Positions 1,949-31,229 of a DNA stretch of 64,000 nt are shown here, piece after piece. Made by a program: the position numbers and the translations under genes. The stretch comes from Membranipora membranacea (taxonomy: Eukaryota; Bryozoa; Gymnolaemata; Cheilostomatida; Membraniporidae): the NCBI GenBank assembly GCA_914767715.1, contig OU612066.1:37920283-37984282 (forward strand). Reading direction: 5' to 3'. Below the pieces are notes generated by a model. That model searched no databases, was not told where the DNA came from, and saw only the letters and a list, made by a program, of their open reading frames with translations. Each line of letters opens with the position of its first letter. The first letter of the stretch is position 1.

Positions 1949-2743
1949 CTTATTAACTGGAAAATGTCTCGTCATTAAAAGAGGTTAGATGACTCTAACA
2001 ATATCGATTAAGACCATAGACTTAATAATATCAAGTCTATGATTAAAACAAATAACATTTAAACCATTACTAAATTTAGGAAAATGTGCATTCACCTGTA
2101 ATGACACTTGCTTCGAAAGCACAATTTTTTAAAAACTAAATTGGCATCACATCATTCTAAAAATGCTCACCGTTATGTTAGGTGTTTTATTCATAATATA
2201 ATTTTTACAACACTGCTGATTGGAAAGGAGAGAAGAAAGCCATGGAGGTCATGCAAAAAAATGCAGCCAGCACCCGGCAAACTGTAACCAGCAAGGGCAC
2301 CAAGTACCTACCAAATCAAAACCGGCACCTAACATTACCTGGTTTTGATGTGTTAGTCATTAAAGGAGTGTCACATAGTTTGGTGAGCTCCGAGCTGGCC
2401 GTGTGGTTAGCGTCACACTGTGTGATCATATATGTAGGTTTGGTAGTGTTAGCCTCAATTCCATCATACATGGTGACACATTTGAATGGTGAAGTATGGT
2501 CATCTATAGAGTGGTCAGCATCCTGGCAGCAATCCCCGTATACAGTACATTCATCCAATATACAAGAGCAAGTTCCTGTATAAACATAATTAGGCAGACT
2601 GAAGTTTGTTCATGGGGTGCTATAATCGTGGATTTGGGAATGAATAGTCACGCAAAAAATTGGCTGACATCCCTATGGGTTGACTAGCTAATTGATAAGG
2701 AAACTACTTTGAATGAGAATATTTGGACACACTGATCACTCAC
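1949..2743. other. No supported gene
   Basis: Two overlapping ORFs on opposite strands (2242-2583 plus, 2316-2558 minus) look like chance reading frames. Neither resembles a known protein, and no convincing splice pairing was found. If the orphan exon at 2744-2984 is real, its next exon should lie here or beyond the left edge. Confidence 0.4.
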
Positions 2744-2984
2744 TTCTGGATGAAAATGAAGACAAGAATCTCGGAAAATCTGTAGTGATGATTTCTAACT
2801 GAATAGAACTAATGAGCCTGTAGACTTCGTCACTTTCGGCGTCACAGTAATGGAGATTCAAACATTCACCCAGCTCAAACATTCCTAAATCATGGGTGAA
2901 GTTAGACCATATCTCCACATCAAGTCTGTCAAATGCCTCAGTAGACCAAGTGACCGCGGCCAATATAAGGGCCAAGACTCTGAC
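2744..2984 (-). CDS. Orphan internal exon candidate
   Basis: A minus-strand open stretch of 241 nt (80 codons plus one base) is bounded by a good acceptor (GCTGTTTCAG) and a consensus donor (AGAA followed by GTGAGT). Its translation begins VRVLALILAAVTWSTEAF and includes the acidic helix-like segment DAESDEVYRLISS. I do not recognise the family. The leucine-rich amphipathic look would suit a helical-repeat protein, but that is a guess. No partner exon in matching phase was found: a short open segment near 3341-3416 ends in the wrong phase. It is downstream of, and on the same strand as, the channel gene. It could be a real exon of another gene or a chance ORF. Confidence 0.3.
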
Positions 2985-5386
2985 CTGAAACAGCAATTTA
3001 TATCATAACATTTCTAAAATGAAAGCTGACCTTACAATTAATTTGACAATTCTACCGAAATCAGCATGTCAGCTAAATTAGCATCATATGGTTTATTGTA
3101 AGGAAATTCCAATACTTGCAATGATCAGAGTGAGTTTTATTGTCTATAGCACTACTGTGAGGGCGATGTGCATAGCACCATGCTAACCATGAAAACTGTG
3201 GGTTTTGCAGCTGTCGGAATTGTTGGATGAAAGAAAGACAAATGTATGGAGAACATTTGGTGGTGGAAACAATAACTTACTCCATACATGATATACATGC
3301 ATATATATATGTCTATTGATATGGAATAAATGTACCTCAGTATATACCTCAGTGTATATGTCACTTCATACCAGCTTGTACCAGGGCTGTCCTCGCTGAC
3401 AAAAACCTTTTTAGACATCACTGATTTCTGTGTACCATCTAGTCTAATTACCTAATAATTTTTTGTCTCTTCTCACTTATTACCTGTCCACATTGTAAAA
3501 CAGAGCAATAATATGCTGGCTCTAGTTTTTATTTCACTTTATATCCTACCAATTGTAATCACTGTCTCATTTGCTATCAGACGTACTGACAGGAAATCAA
3601 TATTCATACAAAAAAAAGAATCTATATATGTCAATATATACTTGCATCAAATAGTGATCAACATGAAAAGATGAATATGAGGGTTTAGTTTGTATGAAAA
3701 TCGAATACCACAAATTTTATTGGTAACAGCTATGTCCATACCTCCATGACAAAATGATGAGTGTTAATCTCCAAGCAAAGCTGCTGCTTTCGTAGGCAGC
3801 AATTTCTTGACTGATCGAAAGTCAGAGTAAGGACAATAATTATAGTCTGCTATATTGTTGACAGTTAACTTATATTGTTATTGTAAGATGACATAATGAC
3901 ATAAACATTATTCATCATTTCTTGCTCCCAAGAGTCATACAAATACATTATTTAATCTATTTTGTCTGCGTTGAATATATCTTAATAATATCTCTATAAA
4001 TCTTATATTTATAAGATAATCTCATAGTTTTCCTCATCCCTCCTCACCTTACATACATACAGAACCCTCTCATGTGAAGCAATTATTTAGATCACATGTA
4101 CTGGTACATGCTTTGTTGTCACATTTTTGCTTCATGAAGAATCTAGATGGGCTCTAGTACAACACTGTAGGAAAAAGATAATACAATATGAAATCAGTGC
4201 GTGCGAGTGAGTGCCAGATATCGGAGGCTTTTCTAGGCAGTCAAATAAATACCTCAATCAGCAGAACAATGAAATGACTACCATGTTCATGCTGATAAGT
4301 GTAAGCAAACATCAATCTCTGGAAATTTGTAAGATTCTGGTATAAAAACTCTAAACCTCAGTATCTGGTGAATATCGTCATTGTACTTGTTTAACTTAAT
4401 TGAAGACTAGTGGAATACCTTGAAACTGAAGGGTGTTCTTTTCTAATTATATATTTGTGATGTATTATTTTAAGACATATTTGAAGCATTGTGTTGCATC
4501 AAGGGCGAGGAATGGGGGCAGGAATTTGTTGTGCAATTACACAGGCATTCATGGGAAACATCATCATCCATATTAGTTTTTGTGTGCTCCTCCTCAATGG
4601 ATAGTCAGCAACACAGTGTTGCGCTAAACATGACGGATGCTTGAAAGCGTACAGCTTTGTTTATCGAATGCTTTTATCATTGCTGCTACCTCCAGCAGCA
4701 TAACATCATGTTTAACGCAAAGCCATGCATGACTCATAGTTAGATGAAAAAGATGATGTTGTAAGTTTTATTAATTTTAGTTCTCACTGCCAACTAAATT
4801 TGTGTGCCTACTATCTGATATTATTATGATGCTATCTGGTAAGAGTTTGCAATGGCTACTCATATATATTATATATATTATAAATCCTGACCAAATGACA
4901 AATTTTTTTCACTTCTGTATATAGGCATTTAGCATCTGTTTTTTTTTCTTCATTTTTCGTTACCTTGTCTCATTGTTACTGTAAGACATGATCTTATTTG
5001 CTTCCCTGCACTGATCAGTTCAATATTAAAGGTTAATATTATTACATCAATGAGGGAGTTCATTGATTACATTACTATTTATGGAAAGGTTGCTGCCAAT
5101 CGCAACATACCCTCTTGTTTATGCAGATTGATTGAAGCGCTGAAACAAATTCTATATTTCTTTTTATGTATATATATCAGTTATTTCGAGTATCATTAGT
5201 TTGAGGCATTTACATTGCCTACAATAGAAGGTAATTTAAGTACAATTGTCCTTGCCAATATTTCTTAGTTTTTTTAGGTTTTTTTTCCGTCACTGCGTGC
5301 AAAGCATTCCAAAAATTGACAGTAAATGTATTCGTATATATCGCATCGATTGTTGAAGTGAACCTGATTTCTGCCCATAAAAGTGT
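2985..5386. other. No supported gene
   Basis: AT-rich sequence. A minus-strand ORF at 3152-3421 has a donor-like end near 3341 but no recognisable similarity and no compatible neighbour. Nothing else was supported. Confidence 0.4.
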
Positions 5387-5459: not shown

Positions 5460-5660
5460 ATTGGATACCTTTGTGAAGCTGAATAACATAATAAGACACT
5501 AGGAATGGCCTGCAATATCACCTGTAAGTTCCCAGGATGTGTATTGTGAATTGGGGGTTCTGAAAATTTTGTTATTAATGTTAAATCCAGTGCATCATTT
5601 ATTATATAATATTAAACTCGCTTCGTTTTTTCAATAGCTCAATCTTTTTATGGTTAATTA

Positions 5661-6004
5661 AAAACTTCTTCACATATTTTGTTCTACTCACCTGTCCTTA
5701 CTCAATGACCAGCGGTCGGCAAAATCAGGGTGACAAAAAAGCAAATTAATGAGCAGAAAAGTACTACAGGTAATCATTATTAAAGATTTGTAATTATACC
5801 TGACCTTGGTAAGTTTGTATAATCTGACCTTGGTAAGTTTGTATAATCTGACCTTGGTAAGTTTGTATAATCTGACCTTGGTAAGTTTGTATAATCTGAC
5901 CTTGGTAAGTTTGTATCTGACCTTGGTAAGTTTGTATCTGACCTTGGTAAGTTTGTATAATCTGACCTTGGTAAGTTTGTTTAATCTGACCTTGGTAATC
6001 TTAG
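5661..6004. repeat. Duplicated intron 16 segment with 24-bp minisatellite
   Basis: About 140 bp (from AAACTTCTTCACA through CAATGACCAGCGGTCGGC) followed by nine copies of a 24-bp unit, CTGACCTTGGTAAGTTTGTA plus TAAT (two copies are shorter). It matches 9499-9800, which lies in intron 16 of the channel gene up to the exon 16 splice donor. The copy here lacks exon 16, so it is best read as a duplicate of the intronic piece placed downstream of the gene. The plus strand of each unit carries a consensus-like donor TTGGTAAGT. The plus-strand ORF across it (5806-6033) is repeat translation only. Confidence 0.9.
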
Positions 6005-7777: not shown

Positions 7778-7974
7778 TCACATATTTAGGGCAGCATTAT
7801 GTTTATTTTCATTATTTCGTAGCTCATTAGCCATTCCCAACCACTTTTCAGCTATTTTCCTCGCTTTGCGTCTACGAGTGCATTGCCTGATGGCTAAAAC
7901 TAAAGCCTCAAACATTTCACAGATCGTCAGCACACTGACGCCGATAAACAATCCCAACTGACCGCCAAGATCGC
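7778..7974 (-). CDS. Channel exon 20: TM2, pore filter and C terminus
   Basis: 197 nt to the TGA at 7778-7780. [20 protein letters not shown] carries the pre-TM2 signature and the GVS selectivity filter (residues 900-902), typical of sodium-selective DEG/ENaC pores. A basic cytoplasmic tail ([15 protein letters not shown]) ends at Met953. No PDZ or PY motif is apparent. Acceptor ATATTGTAG. Confidence 0.96.
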
Positions 7975-10900
7975 CTACAATATTTGTAAATCAATTGTAT
8001 TTTCTAGCATTTTATGAGACAAACCGTACCAACCTCAGCAGATTAACAAATCAAACATATTTATATGCATGAACCCTGTGATTCAAGATGGTTGTCAGGA
8101 TAGGGCTCCGTTTCCAAAATCAAGAATCTAAGTGTAAAACAGCCTTTCATAAACCATAAAATCAATCATGATCTTGGCATCAATTTTGTTCAGGGAGTTA
8201 TAATCTCACTATGTAAGAGTAGATAACTTGAGACTTCTTCATAAAATAGATAATTTTATTCAGAGACGTGATTAATACAGTGTACCAGATATATTATATG
8301 AATGTATAACTCACTCAGTAAGCTTGACTCGTCCATGGCTTTGAGCTGTTTCATCTCTCCATAACTCAACTCATCATAGTACACACTAAAGCTTATCACA
8401 TTGTTCCTGTAAACAATTTTTCTTGTAGATAATCCACAAAATCATCGGTCAGTTTGACATTCACACATTTATCGATATCGAAAAGTCCATACAAATCCAC
8501 AGCAAGCTCATAATACATTAACAGTCACATTACATTATAATCTTTACTAACTTGTATTGGATCTCATAATTAATCCCAGGTGCAGATGTAACGTTTTGAC
8601 AGTTTTTACAGTTTTACATTTTTATATACCAAGGGGCTTTTTTTGTCTGTTATTGTAAGCATTCTCGGATGAGAAGTTTTAAAATTAAAACAAACAAAAA
8701 CAAACAATTTGAATGTGAAAAATAGAGACTTTCTCAGCCAGCCACAGCCCACAGACATCAATAAACCTCCTACTCCCATCATGTGCTGATAACTCACTTG
8801 TAAAAGCTGCTGTCGTTACGTGGATTCTTCTCTTCGTCTGTAATGTTAAAGTATTCCTCATTCATCTCGTCGACGACAGCAGGTATAGATCCAAACTCGA
8901 CATAACTTGTCTTCATGTCTATCGTATCATATTCACAGGATACTGGACATTCGCATTCTCGGGAGAACTCTCCCTGATCTAAGCGAGCTACGATGAGAAG
9001 ACGTTTAATCATTTTAAGGTACGCTGTTAAAAGAAAAGATTACTACGGAAATGCTAGCAGGTTTATTTCGGGAATGGGAACTGGAATCCAAACAATATAA
9101 GGATAAGCTACACACGGCTATGATATGGTCCTACCTATTGCAGGTAAGGCGCAAGTTTTGAGATCAAATGCATTGCATTCTGGTATATCATCCCCAGGAT
9201 AGTAGTAGGGCTTACAGCCACAACTAACAAATGTGTATCGGGTTTTACATTCTACAGCACACTGCTCATAGGAGTAACGCTCTGAATACTGTAATGTGAT
9301 AGATCTGCTGCACCGACCCCAGGGAGGCTCGATGTTCTTCACCTGAAATGTTAACAAAACATTTTAATTTATCAAAAAATTTATTGATGAATGGAAATTT
9401 AAACAAGTGAAAGACACCCCATGATGTAATTGGCGCTTTTTTGCATGTAAGAAAGTAACACGATTATAAAGATGCTACCAATATCATGATGCATCAGAAA
9501 AAACTTCTTCACACATTATTTTGTTCTACTCACCAGTCCTTACTCAATGACCAGCGGTCGGCAAAATCAGGGTGACAAAAAAGCAATTTAATGAGCAGAA
9601 AAGTACTACAGGTAATCATTATTAAAGATTTGTAATTGTACCTGACCTCTGTAAGTTTGTATCTGACCTTGGTAAGTTTGTATAATCTGACCTTGGTAAG
9701 TTTGTATAATCTGACCTTGGTAAGTTTGTATAATCTGACCTTGGTAAGTTTTATAATCTGACCTTGGTAAGTTTGTAATTGTACCTGACCTTGGTAAGTT
9801 TGAATCCAGCGTAGACATGTTTGCCTGTACTGACAGCCAATCCTTGATTCTCTACATCAGGAGATGTTGAGGACGAGTGTACCTGGAACTTAATACCTAC
9901 TTCTGAATATCCTGTCTCTAAGTTCTCTGAATACTCCTCCTGTCAATGGTATTACCAAGTTTATGCTTTGTCGAACTTGTCTACAGTTGATCAGACAGTC
10001 TTTAACTCCTTGAGTTGATGAATCATATTACTGCCAGTGCTCTCCTCTTTCTAATTATGTATATAACTACCACTTGGATTTTATAGTGTGCCACTTAACC
10101 TTCTATCCTCTACGACCTGTCTCTATCATTACATCCCCCATCTATGTCTGTCTCATTTCTGCTCTTCTCCGATCACATTTGGCCCTCACTTTGTTAAATA
10201 TGGATTCCAAGTTAGATAATTGAGCAAAGAAGACCTCAACCAAACCAAGTCAAATTATCATAGTATAAAACTCACTCTGTGAATATCTAGCTTGAGGTTG
10301 AGACCATGAGTAGGTCCGGGCTGTAGCTGTGTAAGGGGTACTTCCAGAGGATCCGTCATGTTTTCAGTCAGCAATCCATCAGGGTTGAAAATGTAACAGT
10401 TTCCAAATCTGGTGAATATGTGCTTAAACCACTACAATATATATGGATGCTCGTATAAAAAGTGGAATGATCACCTCAGCTCAGCGCAACAAATTCCAAA
10501 TTGCAGGAAAGAGATCAAATTGGGATTGTATATTATGGTAGATATTTGAAGTTATTTACTCATTGCGAATGAGCAGACGACTTTACACTGCACTTTCCAT
10601 TGAGTCAATATTAATTATTATGCTTATTTGTAGTTGCCTATTTCTTCTTGGTTGGTGACTATAGGTTGTAACAAACACATACTCACATATTGATCACACT
10701 GTTTTCCTCTGTACCTGCAGTGCAGTATTGAGTTGCTCAGATTCCAGCCGCCAACTTTAATCCTGTCTGAGAAGCGTGTACCCGCCAGATCTAACGCTTG
10801 GGCTGCTCCAGCTATTCAAATATTTCAAATCAAATCAATCAATCAAATCAATAAGAAATTAATTTAAACCATTCTCCTGTTTTTGGTGCCTATGCCTTGT

Positions 10901-13900
10901 CTTTTAGGCTTTAAAGAATTTTGCGTGACTCTGACAGGGAGTGCACTGTATCTTCGTGAAACTATGTTGGCACTTCTGCACACAAACTGCATTTAAGAAC
11001 TGCAAGGCTGACGTAGACTTGCCCGAATGACAGAATTTCGCTCACATTTTTGGGTAGTATTTGTTGACCTCCTGTTTCTGATCATGTTATAAACATTTAT
11101 CGGTTCTGATCTTTTTTTCCTCTTCACCAATTGACCTCCTGTATTTGCCTCTGTTGTCTGTAGCATGGGGGTCGTAGCCTCTATACTACCTGCAAGAGCC
11201 ATAAATGTGTGTGATATAACATTGGCAGTGAGTTGGCATTAAAGGCAAGAAGAGGTTTCAAATACAAAAAGCCACTTATTTGGCAGGACATTGCAGAGGT
11301 TGTATTTTATGCAAATTTGTTAAAAGTTCCTGATTGTGATAAATTGATTCCTCAAAATTAATGTAAACTAACTTTCAATTCAATCCTTGTATTGTATCAA
11401 GACAAATAACAGCTTGAAATACTTGGAAAATGCCAAAATTTCAGTCAGAATATTTTCAGAATCCTGAGTTTAGTAAACTGAAGTGAGAGGTTATCCAGAT
11501 TATATTTTAGTGTGTGATTAAATCGTCATGTATAACACAAGGTGACACCCCCTCCCCCTGCAGCAGTGGCTGCTGACTGAACTATATGTTATGCACACAA
11601 AGTCTGCTAATGTAAAACACTGCTCTTATTCTGACCTAAATATTTTAGATACTCAAATACCATTGGATTATATTTTTATGAATATCATTAGTAAATATAT
11701 TTTTGCTCAGTAGAAGAAAAGGTGTTCCAAAACCTTTCCTTTAACTTATACATCTCAAACCGAATTTTCACAATAAATGTTATGAAAACTAAAAATATTT
11801 AGATTTGAGAATTTTTAATCATTTACAGCATTCCGAGTCTGCATCCAGGCAGCTCTCTTTCACTCCATAAAAAAACAGGAGGAAGTCCCTTCCATCATTT
11901 AATCGAGGCCAACTGATCGGCAAAACAGGTATGAATAATGAGCTATGAGCTAATGTTCTAAAGCTGATTTTATATAGGGTGATTTACCTGAATCTCCATA
12001 AGAATTTGTTGTATCGTTTGCACCTGTAAGATATTGAAAGGACTTATCACAACAGGGGAGAAATCAGCAAATTTAGCCTTAGCTCATTTTTAATCTATTA
12101 TAATGTCCTAGCTACGTACTAATTCAGTGAGAACAATCTTGAAGTTTTCAGTTTTGGGAATTGATATGTAATATATTGATTAGGGGAACATATCTGACTC
12201 TGATCAACAATATAAATGCATTTCTCATCTTTGAATGGTCCACAAGTTCAGGAACTTACCATACCGACCACTTTTAAATCCTTTGTCAATCAGCTTGCCG
12301 CAGTTTTTGAAGCTTGTTACTGGTACTTCAATCAACGCATAATATAAAAGCTGTCTGATTTTTTGCTAGATCCAGTTTCTGACACAAGGTTATGTAGGTT
12401 ATGTAGGCAACGGATGGAATATCTCCACAAATAGCTATTATATGTTACCACTGACTCATATCAATGGTTTTGAGTAAAATTATAAAAAAACCTAAGATTA
12501 TTGTAAAACAAATTTTTGATTGGTCCACCAGTCTGTAAAGCTCTAGACGACCAGCTGGAGATCATCCAACCTCAGTTTTAGAAGGTATTCAGAATCAAAT
12601 GCTGTAATCCTTTGTGAGTGAGCTAGCTGAAAATGGAGTATGTCTTGCTATTCACTGTTATGCCATGTTCACCAGGAGTTGTGAGTTCATATCCCAATGG
12701 CCAGCTTTCTAGCCTATCAGACTGATCAATATTTCATCTATGTTCACAACACCCGGCTTAGACCAACTCACAAATACCATCAAATATATAATGAAGTTTG
12801 TCCAGCGATCTATCATTACTTGGTGTGTATGGATAGATAAGTTAGAAATGTCATGACCTACCAGCTAATATCATTGAGAAGCCAATCCTTTTGTCTGATG
12901 GGGTGTGTATTGATGTTATAAAGGACACACTAATACTCCCAAAATAGTAGTCTGTCAGATCTACTGGTTGGTTATCCATTCCACAAAACCGCATCTGTGT
13001 TTGGTTGTCATAATGATTTGTATATTCTGTAATAATAATAATATGAAGAATTCTCAACTAGACAGGTAGACTCGTCTTCTTTACTGTGCTACACATAGTT
13101 TACTCTATATAAGTATTGCTGGCCTGAACCATAGATAGAGGAACTGAAGTCCAGGTCAGTGGACATTCTGGATCGGACATCAGTTATGTTTGGATCCAGA
13201 AATGGCCCCTGCTTAGATCAGAGCGACATTGTTAGATAATTTGCTGCATGAGTGGGTATTACTAAAGATGGATACACATAATCAGCCTCATGTCAGTTTG
13301 TGGTATCACTGGTTGTGATGTTGACGTACCTATAAGTAAATAATCTGTAGAACAGTTCTCCGAGTGTACTCCATCCAAGGCTAACTCTGTGAATCTTATT
13401 TCTGGTAAAGCTCCTTCTTCTGGGATAAACTGTACCTGGATATACATAAGAGTTATGTTGGTCTTAGCTAGCAATGTGCGGATAACTCTATCTGCTATCT
13501 TATACTACTAATGACTGAATACTAACACATTTACAAACTGTTACTTCATGGATGGTTTTCACCTCTTAGACAGGACCAGTGGCCCTATTTTTCCATATAA
13601 ATAGTCATATTTTTAAGCCATAAAAGATGAACACCTAGCATTATGTCTACTAACCGTGCAGTTAACTCCAACAGGGTAGTGAGCATCATCGGACCCATTC
13701 ATATATGATTCTGAGCTCAGAAGAACCCAGGTACCTAGGCTATTGTCCCCAGTATGAGGGAGTAAGGGATATTCTTGTAACTCTGGGTTACATATATGAA
13801 TAGCCTGTGATACTACAAACACACATCCAAACACAAATTACAAAAATGACATAAAATTACACAATACTTTATACATATAATCACACCGTATGGCAATGAT

Positions 13901-16900
13901 GTGAACTTGCAAACGAACTACTATTAATAATAGTATTTCTTGAGTTACTGATAGCATTTTTCCAGTTGCAGCTCTTGTATACATAATATACCTTGGAGTT
14001 TGTTGTGAGACAAAAAGAAAAATGATGATCACGTTAACTCGGTGGGTTGTTGTTTATTTCACAAACCATTCTGGAGATAAAAGAATCTTTCATCGATCTC
14101 GTAACCTGACGATCCTACTGTTGTAGGTGCGGAGATAGAAGAGAGGATAGTAAAGGAGCCACCATCCTCAGTATCAGCTGTGTCTGTAAAATATGAAACC
14201 CGGTCATCACTTCCAGGCCAGTGAGAACTGATTGATGTAAATGACGGTTTGAGGGATTAGCAAAGAAATTAAAAATATCTTGAAGCCTATGCCCCATCCA
14301 TGATCATCCTCATAGTATATGTGCATGAAGAGAAGAGAACACTATTTCGTGAGTTGGGGTTTGTTAGTGGAAGCAAGTGGCATTTCATTTTAAAGGTTTT
14401 TGAAAAGTTTGAAGATCCAGACAAACCTGCGTAATGGTACTTCAGAGCAAAACCGAGCTTGGTGACTGAGCTGTCAGACGAAAACTTTATTGGTACAGTC
14501 GTTCCCTGTTTCATTGATTGCACATCGACAGCTACAGTCTGTTCGTATTCTCCACATATCCTCGCTGAACCAATCTCAAGATAATCATATATGCAGGAGA
14601 AGTCAGTCTCTATCTGTATAGCAGAACAAAGAGATTTATCCTGGCAAGCAGATTGACTGTATCCTAAATCTGCTCATCATTGGGGGAAATGCATTGTGGG
14701 ACAATTTTTTTTTTTTTCTTTTCTGCAACGATTTATTGTAATTAAAATCAAAGGACTAAAATAGTGAAATAAAATAAGGCAGCGGCATGGTCAGATTAGT
14801 CCAGGACTAGTATGGCAACCATCCGATTATCGGGAAAACGAAGGCTACTGTCCCCAGGGCGAGCCCAGACACGTAGCCTACTCGACAAGAAGCGAACCAC
14901 ACCCCCACAGCGAGGACGCAAACCTCCCACGCAAAGCAGAAGGAGCCGCCGCCTCCTCCCCCAGTAGGTGTGAATTCCACAGGTAAACACCTGTGGTTAA
15001 CATTGACCTCTCCCCTCTGCAGTTGTTGGCTCTCTTTGGGGCAAATTTTTCCTTCGACCTAGTGGCTGTAATGGCAGGGGTTTGAATTTCTAACTCCCCA
15101 TTAAGGCGAGTATTATTGAAATGTAACAAATAGCGGTATTTAAAAAGCATTTCGATGGGCATAATTTGATACGCAGAGAAGAAAGAGGTCACATGACCAC
15201 GTGGGCGGATATTGAGTATGACACGAAGAGCTGATTTTTGAAGTAAATAGATTTGATTAAGATGACAATTTGCGGCAAGACCATTAAACTCAATACCATA
15301 AATTAAATGTGGATAAAAGAATGTGTAATACAAATTGATCATCGTAGAAATATCGAAATATGGTCGTACACTACGCATTAAAAATAGGATGTAGTTCAAT
15401 TTCCGACAAACTTCTAAAATATGGGTTTTAAAAATAATGCTCTCATCAAGGTGAATGCCGAGAAGTTTGGTCCTATTTTTTGTCTCTAAAACCTGATTAC
15501 CAAGTTTAATTTGGTACTGTTCAGGATCTACAATTTGCTTATTTTGGGATTTAAAAATTACCTGAAATGTTTTTGTGAAGTTAAAAATTAATTTATTACT
15601 CAAGCACCATTGTTCAATTTTATGAACATTTGATTTTAAAATTTCGGGATCATTGGAAAATATATTTGTGTCGTCGGCAAAGAGAATATATTTAAACATT
15701 GGCGCAGATATTACCAAATCATTGATAAATATTAAAAATAAAATTGGACCTAATACAGATCCCTGAGGAACTCCTATATCGACCTTTTTCATTGTACTGG
15801 AATGATCAGTGATTTTGACAAATTGTTTTCTGTTTTCTAAATAAGATTTCAACAAGTCACATGCATCATTTGTAAATTATAAAAAGGCAATTTTTGATTA
15901 AAATATCATGGTTGATGGTATCAAAAGCCTTGCTGAAGTCTAAAAATATTCCTTGTGTAATTTTACTGTTATTAAAACTGTCGTACAGGTGTTCCATTAG
16001 TCTAGATATAGCAGAAGTTGTGTTCCGTTTTTCACGGAATCCAAACTGGCTGTCAATTAAAATATTAGAATTTTCCAAATAAAAACGAAGTTGGATAGCT
16101 AATACTTTTTCCGCAATTTTGGATATTGAAGTTAATATTGATATCGGCCGATAGTTGTTACAGTAAAATTTATCACCTTATTTATGCAGTGGTTGTACTC
16201 TGGCAATTTTCTGGCTATCTGGAAATTTTGATGTTCGAACAATAAGATTGATCATGTGGGTCAAGATTGGGCTGATAGCATTTTTATTTTCTTTAATGAT
16301 TTTCATTGAAATTCCATCTTTTTGCAGAGGAATTATTTATGACACTCTCTGTAATGTCGTTTGTAATTTCTGAGAAGTAAAAATGGTTAATTCTGTCGTA
16401 TTTTGATAAGTATGATTACGGGTCAGCTCCACATTCAGGTAATTTAGCTGCCAAGCTAGAACCTACACTCGTAAAAAACTTGTTAAAACATTCAGCAATT
16501 TCATTTTCAGATGTGTACCTTTGTCCATTTGTTTCAATACAGCTTGGTGTTGAAGACTTGTCTGCTTTTCTGTTTAAAAGCCGATTTACAAATGCCCATT
16601 TCTCATTTTGATTCGATTTTACATTTTCAAATTCAGTTTTGTAAAATTCTATTTTCGCATCTTTGATGATATTACATGTCAGATTTTTTATCTTAGAATA
16701 TCTTTGAAGAAGTTTACTGTTGAAAGGCTCATCCTTTAATTTCCGGGCAAGTTTTTCTCGCTGTTGAATCAATTTGAAGATTTTGAGCGTCATCCAAGGC
16801 TTATTAAAAGTAAATTTTTTGCTTACCTATTTGTAAAAATTTCAAAGGCGTCATATGGATTACTGCTATTGAGCACTCCCTGCCATACTTCGGGGTCATT

Positions 16901-19900
16901 AACTTTTTTGTAAAATGTGTTTGGATCAAGCTTAGTAATTAAAATTTGGTTTGCTTGGTTTGGCTTCCATGTGTTTGGAAAAGCAATGGAGCTAATCACT
17001 GGAAAATGGTCAGCTATCATGTCAGTTTTATCTGTACATGACAAAATTTCATTACTGCTGTTGTTGATCAGAATATGATCTAAAATACTGTCTTTCGCGC
17101 GGCCACACCGTGTTGGCGACTCAATAATATTAAAGAAGCCATTCATGCTCATAATTCTCATATAGTCTAGGGTAAAGTTATCAGTTTCATTTGAAGGATT
17201 TAAGTCAAAATTAAGATCACCAACAACTATAGAGTTGATAGGGAGCGAAGGCAGCAGCGCCTCCCAGTCCACCAGGAAAGCTGCCGGCCCCACCGAAGGG
17301 GTGCGATAGACCGGCAGCACATAGCACCATGAAGCCTTTCTGTACAATCCTAATTTCACTCCCTCATGCAATAATGCGTGTTGAATGAATAAATATAATA
17401 AATTTATAAAGTGACACATCACCTGTGCAAAGATGGACATTATGATGTAATTGAAGTCTCTATGCGGTATATCCGATGAGCATGATACACCATTATCATA
17501 GCGCTTTACTCCAAAATCTGTAGATGTGATCCACCCGATGTCAGCAAACCCTGAGTCTGGGCTCAAAGATGAGCAGATAGGATAGACATCACCTGATATA
17601 ATTGGTCTGGAGCTGAAGATCCCTGAATTAGGATAATAAAGTTAATTACATTTCATAATTTCAGTCTAATGCTCGGTTCACATTGTCCCAGATGACACTA
17701 GGATGCCATCCCAGATGCTTATCCTAGTCACATTATAACATTCATCCCAGATAGCCATCCCAGATAGCCATCCCAGTCAATGTGAACCAAAAAATGAAAC
17801 AATCCCAGACTGTCTGGGTCCGTCTGGGATAGCATCGGGAAAGTTTGCGAACTTTCCCGATGCTATCCATAGTGTCATCCTAGTGTCATCTGGGACAATG
17901 TGAACCAAGCATCAGTTGTCAACTTTCTCACTCATACCTATACTGTAATCTCTACTCCCAGTATCTAACTGAGATCTCTACTCCCAGTATCTAACTGAGA
18001 TCAATGTATTCTGCCGCTCTACGCATCCTTTCATCCTAGAGAAACCAATTGGCTACATTCCATTTATCTATTTGGTCAGGTCTATCTAGCCTTGCATTCA
18101 TCACTCACACGAATTACTCAAAGGCTTGTAACATTATGTTACATACTTTTAGAGCAGCAGTAACCGCAGTAGCTGGGGAATCCGCAAATCATGAATATAC
18201 ATCGTTGTTTATGGTTCTTGTCTTGATGCAGTTGAAGCAAATTTCATGAAACCTTGGATTGTTATCACAATCCGATGATATAGATATTAGCCATGACAGT
18301 GAAAGCAAGTAATAAGATAAATTGCTTTTAAGATTGATAGTTTAAAGGATTAGACTGAGAGTTATACCATCCATTAAGGAGGCTATGCAGACGTCCCCCT
18401 CATCACTACCATCAAAACAGTCGACAGACCCGTCACATGTCCAGCTTATAGGGATACAGCATGTCTTATTGGTCTGAGCTTGAGCAGTCAAACATCTGAA
18501 CTCATCTGATGAACAGTCACATATATTATCTTCTGTTCCTATATAGATACAGTAGAAATAGAGAATTGGGTTAGTCTGCCCGCAAAAAAATGGATATCAA
18601 ACAGGTCATTCTCTCCTTCGCCCCTTGCTGTTAGACTAAGAGTATCACTATGCTTCAACATTATCAGAAAATTTAACAACTCTGCCTGCAATGGCAGTTT
18701 CCTGGAGATACAAACTCCAAATTCATGCAGAAGAGTAATAAATCTTGGTCTATAGATCAAAAGTCAGGTCAGGCAAGAGTTAGCTTTATCAAATTCTCAC
18801 TCTGCTAAACATAGACTGCAAACTTTGAATAAATAAATCAACGTTCTAGGTCCCTTACCAGTAAACTCCTCTGTTAATAAATCATTCAGCACACCGAATA
18901 TCTTAGCATTATCTCCCTCATGTAGGTAGGAGAGTCGCACTCTGAAATTATGTATAATTCGTTGTATTATTAAAATTATGTTATCTTAGGTTTGTAGGTA
19001 CGTTGCCGAACATCATCATCACATGAGTTTTATCTTCCCTGGATACTTCATATCATGACATACAAAGTTATGCACAGTTCAGTAACAGCGACTAGCATGA
19101 TAAAATTGAGGGTGTGGTTGTTAAGTCACCCACACCCTTGAGCACATACCATCAGGCGAGGGATTGGTTGTGTTCTTACTTGTTAAAGTTGCAGAGAGTC
19201 ACCGCTGGGAAATGAAGATTCTCAGGAAAGATAGTATTAAACTCTACCACTGTGTTGTAAGAGAAATAGGCCTTAAATCTACAAACAAGTATTGTTATCA
19301 TGATCATGGAATACAATATTAAACAAACATTTTGACATGCATGATCAACAGTGCATAAATGCAGCATCATGATAATATTGAGTTTCTAATCAAACATATC
19401 GACATTATATTATGTTATATTATATACTGCCTCCAATGAACTGGGCTTTCACAGATTTCAATAAGATCTATTAAATATAAGAATAAAATTCAAAACATTG
19501 ATACACTTTACGACTGACTGCTTTCTAAAGTCTGTACCAGAACCTAACAAGTAATACTATTCATGACATCGCATCAGGTATATTCACATTTCCATATGGC
19601 CCCAAGCGTGGCCAAGTGTATTTGCCATCCCATGCGTGAAAGCCACAGCAGAGCATGATATCCTCTAACAGGAGTACATAATAAGAGGGTAGGGAGGGGT
19701 TTGGAATATTCGGTGCTGGTGACTCCAATGATTAAGTGGCTTGCCAGCGTGATGTTGCATGTAAGAGTCCTTCCCCTGGGAAATATCTAATGTTCATCTA
19801 CTCACCTCAGTGTGATCATGACAGCTGACAGGACAAAAGCTCCAAGCAGAGCTATTAGCCAGAAAGCTCTTTTAATGGCTGACTTTGCGCTGACCATCTT

Positions 19901-20432
19901 ACTGACACCATGCGCTGTCGTCTCCATAGCAAAGTTCCACAGTATCCTCTCATCATGCTCAGTATGGCGCACTGAGGAATCCTCCACAGGTGAAGAATCT
20001 GTGTCTATGTCTTTGAAGGCTCTTCCAGGCTTCCTTTTCATTGTAATATCAGTATCGGGCAATTCCTCAACTTGGGTGCTGGTCTACAAAATGAAGGATA
20101 AATGATAATGAGACATAACTTAGATTAGGTTATGTATAAGTAGATAGCTAGAACCCTCAGCCTCATTGGCCGACCAGCTGCTGCAGTGAAACAGTACATA
20201 TCTTCTTGATTCTGAATACTAAACTTAGTACCCCTAACAATTCAGACAACAAATACTGTTCCCTTCCGCCAATTCTTACTCCTGTTCCTCTATTTGGTTT
20301 ATTCAAATTAATTGAGTCTTCGCTTATTTTGAGTACATTAGGTAACAAACACAAGAGGTTTGAATTAATACAAGGTGTTTTAATATTTTAGCTACAAAAA
20401 TTTTTGCCCAAATTAAACATACAACTTACCAT
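7778..20432 (-). CDS. DEG/ENaC sodium channel with LDLa and two CUB domains
   Basis: Subunit of a degenerin/epithelial sodium channel: two membrane spans and a large extracellular loop, normally assembling as a plasma-membrane trimer. Twenty exons, all GT-AG, join in consistent phase to 954 codons including stop. Family hallmarks in order: HG gating motif (59-60), TM1 (about 73-93), [10 protein letters not shown] (117-126), finger motif [29 protein letters not shown], a cysteine-rich thumb, and [16 protein letters not shown] with the GxS selectivity filter (900-902). Unusual insert, residues 155-569: LDLa (161-205), CUB1 (about 228-340), Ser/Thr linker, CUB2 (about 367-509), then two furin consensus sites (545-548, 559-562). 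Family members are usually about 500-700 aa; without the insert this one would be 538. Gating stimulus and partners are unknown. The exon structure is my hand model. Confidence 0.9.
8315..8406 (-). CDS. Channel exon 19: pre-TM2 palm strand
   Basis: 92 nt. [20 protein letters not shown] is the final extracellular strand leading to TM2, as in the ENaC/ASIC NxxxLxVYFxxLxYE segment. It ends in phase 1: codon 889 (AGC, Ser at the degenerin position) is split between exons 19 and 20. Acceptor GTTTACAG, donor CTGA before GTGAGT. Confidence 0.93.
8798..9023 (-). CDS. Channel exon 18: thumb and palm
   Basis: 226 nt, residues 783-858. [20 protein letters not shown] matches the conserved CxCPxPCExxxY segment of the family. 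An acidic, glycosylatable stretch follows ([18 protein letters not shown]). Acceptor CTTTTAACAG, donor TACAA before GTGAGT. Confidence 0.94.
9135..9342 (-). CDS. Channel exon 17: cysteine-rich thumb
   Basis: 208 nt, residues 714-782. [20 protein letters not shown], then a cysteine ladder ([39 protein letters not shown]) typical of the DEG/ENaC thumb, where disulphides stabilise gating movements. Acceptor ACATTTCAG, donor AATAG before GTAGGA. Confidence 0.94.
9499..9789. repeat. Intron 16 minisatellite built from the splice donor
   Basis: On the minus strand the array repeats AAACTTACCAAGGTCAGATT at about 24-bp spacing. In plus coordinates, CCTTGG cores lie at 9667, 9691, 9715, 9739 and 9762, the last one (9789) is the real exon 16 junction, and a degenerate copy is near 9646. 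Each copy therefore reproduces the exon-end/donor sequence. The non-repeat part (9499-9640) matches 5661-5800. Confidence 0.88.
9790..9939 (-). CDS. Channel exon 16: palm strand before the thumb
   Basis: 150 nt, phase 0-0, residues 664-713. [10 protein letters not shown] fits the conserved GxxVxVHxx strand, followed by [10 protein letters not shown] before the thumb. The donor is weak (AAG before GTCAGG). The last 12 exonic bases (AAACTTACCAAG) and first 5 intronic bases (GTCAG) are the first copy of the adjacent 24-bp minisatellite, which repeats this splice junction. Confidence 0.88.
10276..10431 (-). CDS. Channel exon 15: beta-ball segment
   Basis: 156 nt, phase 0-0, residues 612-663. [19 protein letters not shown] matches the ENaC/ASIC stretch around YGNCYTFN, and [14 protein letters not shown] the conserved GPxxGLxLxLNI strand. 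Donor AGA before GTGAGT. Confidence 0.93.
10687..10811 (-). CDS. Channel exon 14: finger domain motif
   Basis: 125 nt, residues 570-611. Encodes [20 protein letters not shown] and then [12 protein letters not shown], the conserved finger helix and Cys pair found across DEG/ENaC proteins. Its phase-1 start marks the end of the inserted module block. Acceptor TTTGAATAG, donor CAATAT before GTGAGT. Confidence 0.9.
11046..11189 (-). CDS. Channel exon 13: linker with two furin sites
   Basis: A 144-nt symmetric phase 1-1 exon, residues 522-569. A Thr-rich start ([18 protein letters not shown]) is followed by two furin-type consensus sites: RKKR/S (residues 545-548, bases 11110-11121) and RNRR/S (559-562, bases 11068-11079), 14 residues apart. 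Vertebrate ENaC alpha is activated by furin cutting at two finger-region sites that release a short inhibitory tract. The same layout here suggests, but does not prove, processing. Acceptor GGCTCTTGCAG, donor AAAAAT before GTGAGC. Confidence 0.72.
11988..12023 (-). CDS. Channel exon 12: 36-nt micro-exon
   Basis: Encodes [12 protein letters not shown] between CUB2 and the furin exon. Acceptor TATCTTACAG, donor TTCAG before GTAAAT. Symmetric phase 1-1, so it could be skipped without changing frame. Supported only by splice signals and phase, because the peptide is a nondescript linker. Confidence 0.6.
12862..13026 (-). CDS. Channel exon 11: last part of CUB2
   Basis: 165 nt, residues 455-509. 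Encodes [18 protein letters not shown] and the final strands [20 protein letters not shown], completing the four-cysteine CUB fold. CUB2 lacks the Asp of the FxSD calcium site present in CUB1, so it may not bind calcium. Ends in phase 1. Acceptor ATTATTACAG, donor GCTG before GTAGGT. Confidence 0.87.
13330..13435 (-). CDS. Channel exon 10: middle of CUB2
   Basis: 106 nt, residues 420-454. Encodes [20 protein letters not shown] and [10 protein letters not shown], the CUB third cysteine and the DYLxI strand. Acceptor ATATCCAG, donor TATAG before GTACGT. Two N-glycosylation sequons (NCT across the exon 9/10 region and NCS here) fit an extracellular domain. Confidence 0.85.
13655..13812 (-). CDS. 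Channel exon 9: first part of CUB2
   Basis: 158 nt, residues 367-419. Encodes [17 protein letters not shown] and on to YPVGVNCTV, the N-terminal strands and first two cysteines of the second CUB domain. The acceptor GTTTGTAG just before TATCACAG is chosen because it alone keeps the frame with exon 8. Donor ACG before GTTAGT. Confidence 0.82.
14106..14183 (-). CDS. Channel exon 8: Ser/Thr-rich linker
   Basis: A 78-nt symmetric phase 1-1 exon, residues 341-366, coding for [19 protein letters not shown] and a short tail. Probably a flexible linker between the two CUB domains. Acceptor ATTTTACAG, donor GTCAG before GTTACG. Confidence 0.7.
14427..14613 (-). CDS. Channel exon 7: second half of CUB1
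   Basis: 187 nt, residues 279-340. Contains the CUB hallmark [15 protein letters not shown] and the strand [20 protein letters not shown]. The Asp before the third cysteine (DFSC) and the Asp of FSSD fit the calcium-binding subset of CUB domains. Acceptor GCTATACAG; donor GCAG before GTTTGT, the weakest donor in the gene. Confidence 0.88.
14705..17330 (-). mobile_element. LINE (CR1/Jockey-like) in intron 6
   Basis: A decayed non-LTR retrotransposon in the same orientation as the host gene. Pieces in several frames: C-terminal part of the APE endonuclease ([17 protein letters not shown]; 16823-17290), a linker (16416-16793), RT ([14 protein letters not shown] near 15900-16000; [15 protein letters not shown] near 15680) and the RT C terminus to about 14880. 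Its 3' end has AATAAA followed by a poly(A) tract (T run at 14705-14717 on the plus strand). The endonuclease N terminus is missing, so the copy is 5'-truncated, and the frames are broken. The 5' boundary is approximate. Confidence 0.88.
17423..17622 (-). CDS. Channel exon 6: first half of CUB1
   Basis: 200 nt, residues 212-278; acceptor CCTAATTCAG, donor GCACAG before GTGATG. It encodes the N-terminal half of a CUB domain ([19 protein letters not shown]), with the first two of four cysteines. The open frame runs on past the donor into the intron and the LINE, but the splice to exon 7 restores the CUB fold. Confidence 0.85.
17669..17912. mobile_element. Foldback MITE in intron 5
   Basis: A 244-bp element with inverted ends sharing GGTTCACATTGTCCCAGATG and on through ACACTAGGATG. 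A perfect central hairpin has 19-nt arms at 17827-17845 and 17850-17868 around a TGCG loop. No ORF. Target-site duplication not clear. It lies between channel exons 5 and 6, and its ability to fold in the pre-mRNA follows directly from its sequence. Confidence 0.85.
18368..18538 (-). CDS. Channel exon 5: LDL-receptor class A domain
   Basis: A symmetric phase 1-1 exon of 171 nt (residues 155-211) holding one LDLa module. The core [20 protein letters not shown] matches the family's calcium-binding signature, with W187, D190, D194, D200 and E201 in the expected places and Cys at 163, 170, 182, 189, 195 and 205. Extra cysteines sit at 161 and 181. LDLa modules bind ligands or partner proteins in a calcium-dependent fold. 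Acceptor CTATATAG, donor GGATG before GTATAA. Confidence 0.9.
18859..18941 (-). CDS. Channel exon 4: last exon before the insert
   Basis: Acceptor TAATTTCAG, donor ACTG before GTAAGG; 83 nt, ending in phase 1. Encodes [13 protein letters not shown] and on to LLTEEFT. The phase-1 end matches the start of exon 14, so a direct 4-to-14 splice would stay in frame. Confidence 0.85.
19180..19278 (-). CDS. Channel exon 3: post-TM1 palm strand
   Basis: Acceptor TTGTTTGTAG, donor AACAA before GTAAGA; 99 nt. It encodes the segment just after TM1, including the family signature [10 protein letters not shown] (117-126), the first palm strand of the extracellular domain. Confidence 0.93.
19806..20083 (-). 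CDS. Channel exon 2: N terminus, HG motif and TM1
   Basis: Acceptor TTTTGTAG, donor GAG before GTGAGT; residues 2-94. It encodes an acidic cytoplasmic segment, then [13 protein letters not shown] containing the His-Gly gating pair found across DEG/ENaC channels, then the hydrophobic span [17 protein letters not shown]. Ends in phase 2. Confidence 0.92.
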
Positions 20433-21439: not shown

Positions 21440-21950
21440 GTTCCGTGACATCAACATAGGAGTACCCCAATGTTCAAACTTGCGGCCACTATTATTTTAA
21501 AATTACATAAACGAATGCAGCGCCTACATTATATTTCATTCTGTATGCAGACGACACTATATTCTGTACCGACCATGACATTTTAAGACAAGAATTGAAC
21601 AAAGTAGAAAATTGGTGCTTAGCTAATAAACTTGTACTTAACTATTCCAAAACTTTTCAGGTAATTTTTAAATCCCCAAGAAAATTTATCAGTTCTGTTG
21701 ATCATGTCATCAAACTGAATACCAACACCCTTGATCTGAAAAATGAAACTAATTTTTTAGTTAATTATCCTTGATTCAATCATTAATTTTAAATCGCACA
21801 TAAATTAATTGTGCAAATTGGTTGTGATGATGATGCGTGTTGTAAGACCATATTTTGACAAAAAAACCATGAATACCTATATTCCTCATTTTTATATCCG
21901 ACCTACTTCATGGAATAGAGTTTTGGGGCCACGCTTCTGAAAATGATTTA
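21440..21950 (+). pseudogene. Reverse-transcriptase relic, same family as the intron 6 LINE
   Basis: A broken plus-strand RT segment. ADDTIFCTDHDILRQELNKV, then NWCLANKLVLNYSKTFQVIF, aligns with the LINE in channel intron 6 ([35 protein letters not shown]). Frame changes and stops show it is dead. Confidence 0.8.
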
Positions 21951-22005
21951 GAACGAAAAATAGGCTTGTGTGAGAGTAATTTTAAAGAAAAAAACCAGAG
22001 ATCTT

Positions 22006-22157
22006 TCCAGGAGGCGATTGTGACGTTGAGTGTTTTAGTCAGGCAGTCACTGTTCTCTGTCCTATCTGACTGTCCCATTGCTCCAGGAGGCGAGTGTGAC
22101 ATTGAGTGTTTTAGTCTGGCAGTCTCTGTTCTCTGTCCTATCTGACTGTCCCATTGC
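22006..22157. repeat. Two-copy 76-bp tandem duplication
   Basis: TCCAGGAGGCGATTGTGACG at 22006 recurs at 22082 (TCCAGGAGGCGAGTGTGACA). The two units are nearly identical, including CTGTTCTCTGTCCTATCTGA. Lies just after the RT relic. Confidence 0.9.
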
Positions 22158-28589: not shown

Positions 28590-31229
28590 AGGTAACTGTA
28601 AATTGCTGAACAGGCTGAACAGGCTGAACAGACTGAACAGACTGAACAGCTGAACATAATTTCTTAGACTATTATCCGTTTGATTCTTTACATGATTGGC
28701 TAATTTTGCATGAGCATGGATATTTTTTTATATTCTGCTAGTAGAGATTGTGAGTATGAGGAATTTAGGTATTACTTTTGCTCGTCGTCTTCTCATGAAC
28801 ATGATGAGGAGACAACTACAATGTATTACATATATTAATGAGGACCCCTAGTTCATACATGAATGAACATGGATGATTAGGAAGAGTGAATGAAGTATTA
28901 ATAGCAAGTGAAGAGCTTAGCTCGGGGACTCTTGACCCACCAAGAGAACTGAGCACATCAGACATTAATTGGAGCTGAAATATGTGGCAACAGCACACAG
29001 ATACCTAGCCACATATTCAGTATTAGATAGTATTATAATCTCGGCTGGAGATAAGTGAGATTGTGGGTGCTGTGACAACTGCACGTCATGGCATCGGCTG
29101 GGAAGCAAACCGGTAGTTCTCAAAGGAAAGCCCAAAGGTTAGACGGGAGATAGTAGTTGATAAGGTGCGCAAGATGGAAGAGGAGCGCTGCCAGACGCAA
29201 GTTGTAGGCCAAGCCCAACAAGGCAGGTGGTCTTGTTGGGAGTCTGTTGAGCAGCGTCAGCTCAAATGGACAGAAATGTGGTCGATGGAGCCACAAAGGA
29301 TCAGCTTTCTGGTTGGTGCAACTTATGATCAACTACCGACCCCGGCGAACCTGGAACGCTGGAATTTGACCGAGAACTCGAAATGCTCCAAGTGCTCGGC
29401 CAAGGGCACACTTCGACATATTCTGTCGAATTGCCCGCAGAGCCTTGGAAGATACACGTATAGACATAATCAAGTCCTGAAAGTGTTGTGTAAATATGTC
29501 ACGGAGAAGTGTGAATATGCTAATGCTGGTGGTGAAGCGCATGAAAAGATTTTGCGCAAAAGGGGATTGATGAACAGCGGAGAATGGCAGGTGAGATTCG
29601 ACCTCACAGAGCAGCTCAGCATGCCACAGCATATTGTGATCACAAACCAAATACCAGACTTAATTGTCTGGTCTGACAAAGAAAAAGCACTAATACTGAT
29701 GGAATTGACGGTGCCTTGGGAAGAAAATCTTTCAAACGCACATGAGAGAAAACTGACAAGATACGAAGATCTGGTGACACAATGCCAAGACAAAGGTTGG
29801 AATTGCGAATTATTCGCAGTGGAAGTTGGCTGCCGTGGCTTCATGGCTAGATCAGCTACCAAATTTCTGACTAGAGTTGGGCTGTCGGGCAGAGAACTCA
29901 AACAAGCCACAAAAAGCGCATCTGCATGGATTTGGCAACAGCACTGTGTGAAGACAAAAGCTAAGTAATCCTATTGCTTGTAAGCTGGGGTTTAACACGC
30001 TCACTTTGTTTTGTGGAGTTGACCAGCATTTATTTCCTTTGTTTATAATCCTTGTAAGGATTAGATTGAGGGGATTATGTGATGATTAGCAAACTGCTCG
30101 GGGTAGAAGGCTAAGCGGGATTATGCCTTTAATACTCAAATTAAAGTAGTTTAATCTCTGCAGGGTGAAAAACCAAAGTGAGTCTGAGTTAGGCATTACA
30201 AACATAGGATTAAAAGCTTGGCCATCGCATAAAAGGTAGGCAGAGCGAGACAGGAGATCACAGTCAGCCCACTGGCTGTAGCGCAAACAAGTCATCTCTC
30301 TGACTTGTGTATGAGTTGTACTATGCTCAATGTGGTGAATTTGAGTAGTGAACTATGGCACGAGGGGCGGGTGCCTTGACGATTAGCGATGTTGCGCCGA
30401 TGAGTTGATGGAAAGCAAACCTCCCAGCACTGGTTTGGCTTAGAGTATAAGCATGAGAGTGATGGGGCGAACATTGTTAAACTGAAACAATGACGAGTTG
30501 GCAGCCTCCCTGGTTGCGCAACAGCGTAAACACACCAATTATGTCAAACCACCGAAACTTACAAAATGCACTGAGGGATCGATGAGATTGATTGAGATGC
30601 TCATCAACACACAGGGGTGGCTTCATGCTGCTGGGGCCGGCCATGAGGAGGTTGTACTAGAGAAGGCCTCGAAACAGCGCTTGACTCATGGTTTCTAGCT
30701 GAAGCCCTGTGTGTTGTGCAATATGTGAATATGCAAACAGCTAAGTAAACCTAACCAAGATGATTGTGTGATTGTGGTTGCGAGTTTATATCTTGTTCTG
30801 TTTATATTGCATATGTTTTTCTATCATGACGATGTCTCTCACCCGTGTTTTTGTCTATCTCTAGGTTCGATATCACCGTAACAGGACAGGTCGATCAGGA
30901 TTAAATTACTTTGATGGTTGTCGGTTCAGAGGTAGAATAGTATAATTCGGTGAGTTGTATATTTATATGAATTGAGCATTTGCCATTAACTAGCTGTTAG
31001 TGTACACCCCAAAGTGCACCATTTAGAGCGTATCAATTTGCTTGCCCTAAATTGGTTATATTAGGTGCCAACAGGTTAACTTAGTGACTCATCAAATCAT
31101 TTGGTTAGGAGGAATGTGTTTGAGAAGTGATAGTCAGCCAGAGAAATGATTACAAATAATAATTTTAGTCTGAGAAATTCTGTTCAGCTGTTCAGTCCGT
31201 TCAGCCTGTTCAGCAATTTACAGTTACCG
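28590..31229. mobile_element. Long-TIR element with endonuclease-like ORF
   Basis: The ends are inverted repeats: left 28590-28668 begins GGTAACTGTAAATTGCTGAA, and right 31163-31229 is its reverse complement. Both contain tandem 10-bp CTGAACAGGC-like units, with two more copies on the left. Flanking TCATGTTTG (28581-28589) and TCATGCTTG (31230-31238) form a 9-bp duplication with one mismatch. Long TIRs plus a 9-bp TSD resemble Mutator-like elements, but no transposase is visible. The interior holds an endonuclease-like ORF and, near 30490-30700, a segment repeated at about 44.2 kb. Confidence 0.75.
29174..29968 (+). CDS. Zn-knuckle plus restriction-like endonuclease-type protein
   Basis: 264 codons from ATG to TAA; the frame also extends upstream without a Met. 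After a basic N terminus comes RISFLVGATYDQLPTPANLE, a C-X2-C-X7-H-X4-C knuckle (CSKCSAKGTLRHILSNC), then IPDLIVWSDKEKALILMELT and VPWEENLSNAHERKLTRYED. The order knuckle then PD...ExT resembles the C-terminal region of retroelements with a restriction-like endonuclease, and I recall abundant relatives in marine-animal genomes. No reverse transcriptase precedes it, so it is either a detached C-terminal domain or a protein of the enclosing TIR element. The usual catalytic Lys after the Glu is Thr here, so activity is uncertain. Confidence 0.65.
   Translation: MEEERCQTQVVGQAQQGRWSCWESVEQRQLKWTEMWSMEPQRISFLVGATYDQLPTPANLERWNLTENSKCSKCSAKGTLRHILSNCPQSLGRYTYRHNQVLKVLCKYVTEKCEYANAGGEAHEKILRKRGLMNSGEWQVRFDLTEQLSMPQHIVITNQIPDLIVWSDKEKALILMELTVPWEENLSNAHERKLTRYEDLVTQCQDKGWNCELFAVEVGCRGFMARSATKFLTRVGLSGRELKQATKSASAWIWQQHCVKTKAK

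Follow-up and report, generated by a model that had tools for sequence, protein, structure and literature searches.

Introduction

Channels of the DEG/ENaC family share one fold and respond to very different stimuli, and the route by which new stimuli are reached is an open question. A described parallel to the gene reported here, which is predicted on the minus strand (20432-7778) of a 64,000-nucleotide stretch of the genome of the bryozoan Membranipora membranacea (assembly GCA_914767715.1, contig OU612066.1, positions 37,920,283 to 37,984,282; the whole stretch is called the window), is the GRIP domain of ENaC. GRIP lies between finger helices 1 and 2 (PMC6197857), carries paired polybasic sites and is called unique to ENaC within the family (PMC8791634, PMC6197857). 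When the GRIP domain of one subunit is cleaved twice, an inhibitory tract is set free and the channel becomes active, and the paired cleavage sites have been linked to the vertebrate move to land (PMC8791634). Another precedent is nematode EGAS ('EGF plus ASC'), a DEG/ENaC channel with an extra extracellular-type module; EGAS-2, -3 and -4 and one channel printed as EGAS-12 are listed among those without measurable current (PMC10424705). An added extracellular-type module in a DEG/ENaC channel is thus not unheard of.

The protein predicted from the window (the window protein) differs from EGAS in carrying LDLa and CUB modules, and no EGF family was among the Pfam matches to its translation up to E 1. 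CUB and partly LDLa modules also stand together in Neto, LEV-10 and SOL-1, which are auxiliary subunits made as separate proteins with one transmembrane segment (TM) and no pore, and in matriptase-type proteases, which have a CUB-LDLa stem. The order in Neto and matriptase is CUB-CUB-LDLa, the reverse of the LDLa-CUB-CUB order found here, and no protease domain was returned by a Pfam search of the window translation. No DEG/ENaC channel with CUB or LDLa was found in the open-licence PMC literature, covered mostly as titles and abstract starts; within that scope, this agrees with an earlier note on this DNA, which named no described channel of this kind.

Results

A predicted DEG/ENaC channel with an LDLa-CUB-CUB head in its finger

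The gene model, a prediction from sequence, is based on GT-AG sites, on the open frame and on domain matches. Its 20 exons join to 955 codons with the stop counted (954 residues) and contain no internal stop. The earlier note had described a DEG/ENaC channel, an LDLa and two four-cysteine CUB domains in one 20-exon frame of 954 codons; the independent model and the Pfam matches agree with that layout, and the codon count is corrected upwards by one. Pfam ASC was matched on the full translation at 6.1e-87 (293 bits against a cutoff of 23.6), and the DEG/ENaC hallmarks (HG motif, TM1, cysteine-rich ectodomain and TM2 with GVS) are all present; the motifs that had been named before (HG motif, TM1, finger, thumb, TM2 and GVS filter) were thus recovered in the translation. 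The channel core has 14 ectodomain cysteines, the number required for the seven disulfides said to be conserved across the family (PMC6197857).

The head was matched in the order LDLa-CUB-CUB. Pfam LDLa was found in the full translation at 7.8e-7 (29.6 bits) and in the isolated piece at 6.5e-10 (39.5 bits; cutoff 24.1), and this piece matched VLDLR/LDLR repeats in the PDB. Pfam CUB was found in the full translation at 3.3e-10 (40.7 bits) over two stretches; the first domain (CUB1) stood above the curated cutoff in isolation (9.5e-7, 29.6 bits), and the second (CUB2) has four cysteines at 387, 431, 460 and 482. Exons 6 and 7 share the CUB1 match and flank the 2.8-kb intron 6 with its broken long interspersed nuclear element (LINE); the two exons plainly belong together. 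No NCBIfam model matched the head. The LDLa module (residues 161-205) fits what we take to be the Ca2+-site pattern, and exon 7 of CUB1 (IETDFSC, YDYLEI, FSSD) has acidic residues at three positions that are presumably those of Ca2+-binding CUBs. On these residues the head would probably bind Ca2+, and it is likely to bind a ligand or a matrix protein in a Ca2+-dependent manner.

In the alignment to the ASIC2 PDB entry, query residue 137 is paired with chain residue 108 and query residue 604 with chain residue 163, which leaves 466 residues where ASIC2 has 54, in the finger. The placing of the head in the finger region by the earlier note is borne out by this alignment, by which the head also appears to occupy the place of the ENaC GRIP domain. 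The spacing between the CN and YGNCY anchors is 508 residues in the window protein and 502 in P0001, a channel of the bryozoan Watersipora subatra; it is 84-114 in the vertebrate and tunicate ASIC/BASIC rows in which both anchors were located.

Tandem furin-type sites behind the head

Directly behind the head lies a pair of furin-type sites, RKKR↓S (558-561) and RNRR↓S (572-575), with 14 residues between the cuts (arrows mark the predicted cuts). They had been overlooked in the earlier note. The pattern RX[KR]R, which we take as furin-type, was counted in 53 proteins (the window protein and 52 found by the searches described below). A pair within 20 residues occurs in two of the 53, the window protein and P0001; these counts are not independent, since close vertebrate ASICs make up many of the 53. 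In 50,000 shuffles of each finger segment, a pair arose in 6e-5 (window protein) and 4e-5 (P0001) of the draws.

At least one finger match was found in 10 of the 53 (P0001, P0006, P0007, P0009, P0011, P0023, P0039, P0044, P0048 and the window protein). In the two lamprey entries this finger match stands right where the finger starts. Outside the finger, the match of P0041 is extracellular and ahead of it, and by position all others belong to the N- or C-terminal parts. P0032, P0034-P0038, P0041, P0042, P0045, P0046 and P0048-P0052 lack at least one of the two finger anchors; P0041 and P0048 were placed by reading, and the other unplaced rows hold one match, in P0046, which is C-terminal. P0048 (Trinorchestia longiramus, an amphipod; predicted, 1421 residues) combines Ets and ASC domains and has a very long, acidic, repetitive finger with RX[KR]R at residues 819 and 861, 42 apart. 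With finger sites in 10 of 53 proteins, P0048 included, long fingers with basic sites may be more widespread in the superfamily.

In ENaC alpha and gamma, an insert between the finger helices likewise carries two polybasic sites; GRIP is described there as a beta-strand insert, and as described has no LDLa or CUB (PMC8791634, PMC6197857). The window protein also differs from ENaC in having 14 residues between the cuts, the head N-terminal to both of them, and a sequence nearer to ASIC. The paired finger sites of two BASIC-type channels, with cleavage predicted, would fall outside this ENaC-only, vertebrate picture.

The channel core belongs to the BASIC/ASIC5-like clade

The best PDB matches of the window protein are the solved ASIC2/ASIC1 structures (4.3e-59), with ASIC entries at about 200 bits and ENaC entries at most at 97 bits. 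Trees were made from channel cores of 26 of the 53 rows (27 were picked, and P0041 was dropped because an anchor is missing) and of 22 of the 53 (the first set minus P0048, P0047, P0005 and P0044). ENaC rows were not included, the ASIC rows are chordate, and BASIC/ASIC5, the clade of the bile acid-sensitive ion channel (BASIC), is represented by two near-identical lamprey entries and one crinoid protein. In both trees the window gene and P0001 group with the two Petromyzon BASIC/ASIC5 entries and the crinoid ASIC5-like protein, with support for this BASIC-like clade of 98/96 (26 rows) and 97/94 (22 rows). Grouping with the chordate ASICs was rejected by the approximately unbiased (AU) test on the 22 rows (p-AU 0.0045 for the window gene with P0001, 0.0063 for the window gene alone). 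The channel belongs to the BASIC/ASIC5-like clade and not to the ASICs. Its core grouping (97/94), core cysteines and motifs are those of the clade, whereas the CN-to-YGNCY spacing is 85-97 residues in the three clade members and 508 in the window protein.

The equivalents of H73 and D78, judged by eye in the ASIC1 PDB alignment with residues identified by motif, are T and N. H73 and D78 are named among the protonatable gating residues of ASIC (PMC9949801), so ASIC-type proton gating is not expected. BASIC-clade channels outside mammals are given as uncharacterised as of the same paper (PMC9949801).

Gene structure and intron phases

Features of the gene (window positions and strand) are as follows.

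20430..20432 (-): exon 1, ATG, then donor GTAAGT; start provisional; reading frame of 955 codons from here
19806..20083 (-): exon 2, cytosolic N-terminus; HG motif TTAHG at residues 56-60; TM1 at about 75-93
19180..19278 (-): exon 3, post-TM1 and FPAVTLCN motif
18859..18941 (-): exon 4, start of the finger; final channel exon ahead of the head; phase-1 donor
18368..18538 (-): exon 5, LDLa module, residues 161-205; symmetric phase 1-1; eight cysteines; Pfam 6.5e-10
17423..17622 (-): exon 6, first part of CUB1; Pfam CUB match spans exons 6-7
14614..17422 (-): intron 6, broken LINE (endonuclease and reverse transcriptase) in the same orientation as the gene
14427..14613 (-): exon 7, second part of CUB1; IETDFSC, YDYLEI, FSSD; Pfam 9.5e-7
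14067..14183 (-): exon 8, CUB1-CUB2 linker; symmetric phase 1-1
13655..13812 (-): exon 9, first part of CUB2; Pfam E 8e-4, 20.2 bits against cutoff 21.4
13330..13435 (-): exon 10, middle of CUB2
12862..13026 (-): exon 11, last part of CUB2
12260..12280 (-): in-frame microexon candidate, 21 nt, omitted from the model; weak acceptor
11988..12023 (-): exon 12, linker
11046..11189 (-): exon 13, linker; furin-type pair RKKR↓S (558-561), RNRR↓S (572-575)
10687..10811 (-): exon 14, channel core (finger) resumes
10276..10431 (-): exon 15, FGNCYIFN region
9790..9939 (-): exon 16, channel core; final 16 bases inside a minisatellite-bearing repeat
9135..9342 (-): exon 17, thumb region, cysteine-rich
8798..8987 (-): exon 18, channel core
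8315..8406 (-): exon 19, pre-TM2
7778..7974 (-): exon 20, TM2 with GVS filter, C-terminus, stop codon

The start is provisional in that exon 1 consists of the ATG only and a further in-frame ATG lies within exon 2. Inclusion of the 21-nt microexon (12280-12260) would give 962 codons in frame; it was dropped for its poor acceptor. For exon 13, the donor GTGAGC at 11046 was preferred to the poor donor GTCAAT at 11136, which is in frame and drops the furin-type sites. No tandem duplicate of the channel was found in the window by tblastn with the window protein and P0001-P0009. The LINE in intron 6 was matched by Pfam Exo_endo_phos_2 (27.5 bits, cutoff 27.4) and RVT_1 (58.1 bits, cutoff 29.6). A stretch of about 310 bp with a 24-bp minisatellite (9499-9805) includes the last 16 bases of exon 16 and its donor (AACTTACCAAG, then GTCAG) and recurs, 92.6% alike, about 3.8 kb away at 5660-5958, which is 1.8-2.1 kb past the stop codon of the gene. 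The minisatellite unit may derive from the end of exon 16, or the end of exon 16 from the repeat.

The introns at head-module boundaries (4, 5, 7, 8, 11, 12 and 13) are all in phase 1 (seven of seven). The nine remaining introns outside the CUB domains have phases 0, 2, 2, 0, 0, 0, 1, 2 and 1, that is, phase 1 in two of nine (Fisher p 0.003, with the three introns inside CUB domains, of phases 0, 0 and 1, omitted and the test framed after the phases were seen). Phase-1 boundary introns are the classic signature of exon shuffling. This signature, absent from the earlier note, is present here, and by its intron phases the head is a predicted gain through phase-1 exon shuffling.

Relatives of the window protein

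Three protein searches returned 52 distinct proteins (10 unnamed): one in the first search, nine in the second, with the channel core, and 44 in the third, with the P0001 core. The first search scored only the 7986 candidates with most words in common. The nearest relative found was P0001 (941 residues), which is probably itself a predicted protein and has the same layout in one protein. It is 39% identical to the window protein in the channel core and shares with it the long anchor spacing and tandem furin-type sites just behind the insert (RSKR↓S and RVKR↓Q, with cuts 18 residues apart). It differs in the head, which has a Sushi domain (20.9 bits as a piece against a cutoff of 20.7, 14.7 bits in the full protein) and a second segment of about 200 residues, and has no CUB and no LDLa. 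The second segment has faint PDB matches (sialidase, 0.029; neuronal pentraxins, E 0.06-0.14); a pentraxin-like assignment was rejected because these matches rank behind sialidase and have no Pfam support. On P0001, NCBIfam gave ENaC (264.8 of 428 bits) and deg-1 (168.8 of 598 bits), both below cutoff, and no other model. The database label of P0001, isoform X2, shows that more than one isoform is given for its gene.

Among the 52 (10 unnamed) there was no further named protein from a bryozoan, and no CUB or LDLa was among their precomputed Pfam domains. Pfam was run on P0005-P0009, five of the nine channel-core matches, and gave ASC with no second domain above cutoff. P0010 (Antedon mediterranea, ASIC5-like) has a precomputed PF00078 reverse transcriptase besides ASC, probably a prediction artefact.

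Discussion

The preferred account is as follows. A single gene would encode a DEG/ENaC subunit of the BASIC/ASIC5-like clade that forms trimeric channels and whose finger acquired an LDLa-CUB-CUB head via phase-1 exon shuffling, at the position of the ENaC GRIP domain. LDLa and CUB1 would bind both Ca2+ and some partner outside the cell, a ligand or a component of the matrix, and the trimer would be crowned by three heads. Along the secretory pathway, convertases of the furin type would make two cuts behind the head and remove the 14-residue tract. The head, until then a loop anchored on two sides, would thereby become an appendage held via the finger and TM1 only. By analogy with the double cleavage of ENaC, this double cut may license opening, and a ligand bound to the head may modulate gating or placement of the channel through the finger and thumb. 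Taken as a whole, this account of a BASIC-type channel with a shuffled head and convertase licensing is given an even chance.

One rival reading is that the model joins two genes, an LDLa-CUB-CUB gene lying in a phase-1 intron of an ordinary BASIC-like channel and never joined to it. The head is a symmetric 1-1 cassette whose skipping leaves a complete in-frame channel of 526 residues, which speaks for a nested gene. However, strand and phase match at both joins (4-5 and 13-14, each in phase 1, with all exons colinear), no initial-exon candidate was found in the 640 bases (19178-18539) before the LDLa acceptor when these were scanned for an ATG, an open frame of at least 8 codons and a GTA/GTG donor in phase 1 ahead of an intron of more than 60 bases, the open frame preceding that acceptor has no Met, and the W. 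subatra protein at NCBI has a head within its channel at the same place. Phase, colinearity, the lack of an alternative start in the 640 bases and the relative of the same layout together suggest that exons 4-5 and 13-14 are joined in the mRNA. A nested gene or model artefact is held to be quite improbable, and it is highly probable that at least one isoform of the channel protein includes the head. The same in-frame skip makes alternative splicing a live rival, with the plain 526-residue channel as the main product and the head form minor or tissue-restricted. Each head module and the entire head are phase-symmetric, and the gene of P0001 has isoforms, of a kind that the label leaves unspecified; yet a skip from exon 4 to exon 14 in one step would have to cover about 8 kb and ten introns, and this alternative is considered rather unlikely. 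A different objection accepts the head and denies it a role in gating: it would serve trafficking or anchoring, as Neto, LEV-10 and SOL-1 do, with the furin-type sites incidental or for maturation. That both cuts fall behind the head, which would stay attached through TM1, fits such a device. Against it, the head sits in the finger beside the gating helices, and tandem sites recur behind an unrelated head in P0001, both of which suggest constraint on the link; a pure anchoring role is judged possible but doubtful. The probabilities of these alternatives overlap with that of the preferred account and need not sum to one.

Several observations weigh against the preferred account itself. The joins 4-5 and 13-14 fall inside no conserved domain of a sequence-predicted model, so that other evidence is needed for them, and the start scan was confined to 640 bases. 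The LDLa exon has eight cysteines, not six (an extra pair); CUB2 scored 20.2 and 20.0 bits in isolation against a cutoff of 21.4 (E about 8e-4) and by eye is without part of the Ca2+ site. The furin-type pair depends on the exon-13 donor at 11046, and use of 11136 would omit it. A single RX[KR]R arises in 5-6% of shuffles and is not rare, and eight channels besides the window protein and P0001 have at least one in the finger. Because both sites stand behind the head, cleavage would not release it, and the window protein and P0001 show hardly any likeness in the tract between their cuts. The pairing of these two as sisters is weakly supported (88/79 and 82/57) and their heads are not homologous, so that two separate gains of head and sites are possible. 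A single-sequence fold of P0001 gave a predicted local distance difference test (pLDDT) score of 31, worthless, and was not used.

A wider and more tentative reading, which is on balance unlikely to hold, is that in a branch of the BASIC-type channels the finger is a dock for exchangeable extracellular modules (LDLa-CUB-CUB in the window protein, Sushi and a second segment in P0001), each closed by a tandem convertase cassette. If true, such proteins would form a family of receptor-channels that are modular and licensed by proteases, with a changing sensor on a conserved latch and pore, and an ENaC-like double-cleavage latch would exist outside vertebrates, at the place of an insert, GRIP, that was called unique to ENaC. 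If the joins are confirmed by transcripts, the gene is an example of how exon shuffling could equip a channel with a sensor of its own. A shuffled-in head and convertase-type sites at what appears to be the GRIP position make the gain of stimuli testable. Paired convertase-type sites in DEG/ENaC fingers would lie well beyond the vertebrate setting in which PMC8791634 explains the evolution of the pairs in ENaC.

Other features of the window

Broken LINE-type retrotransposons were found at 14881-17349 (-), 21511-22142 (+), 29117-29965 (+), 33677-35807 (+) and 57995-58852 (-), with Pfam RVT_1 at 14.9-15.9, 33.7-35.8 and 58 kb, an endonuclease at 16.8-17.6 kb barely above cutoff and zf-RVT at 29 kb barely below. 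The element at 21.5 kb is 71% identical to the intron-6 element over 145 bases. Open frames at 2319-3002 (-), the first of them cysteine-rich, look like a receptor ectodomain; 2319-2609 had no Pfam match. Open frames at 56152-56478 and 59585-59860 (-) have a tRNA ligase anticodon-binding domain (Pfam) and probably belong to a valyl-tRNA synthetase.

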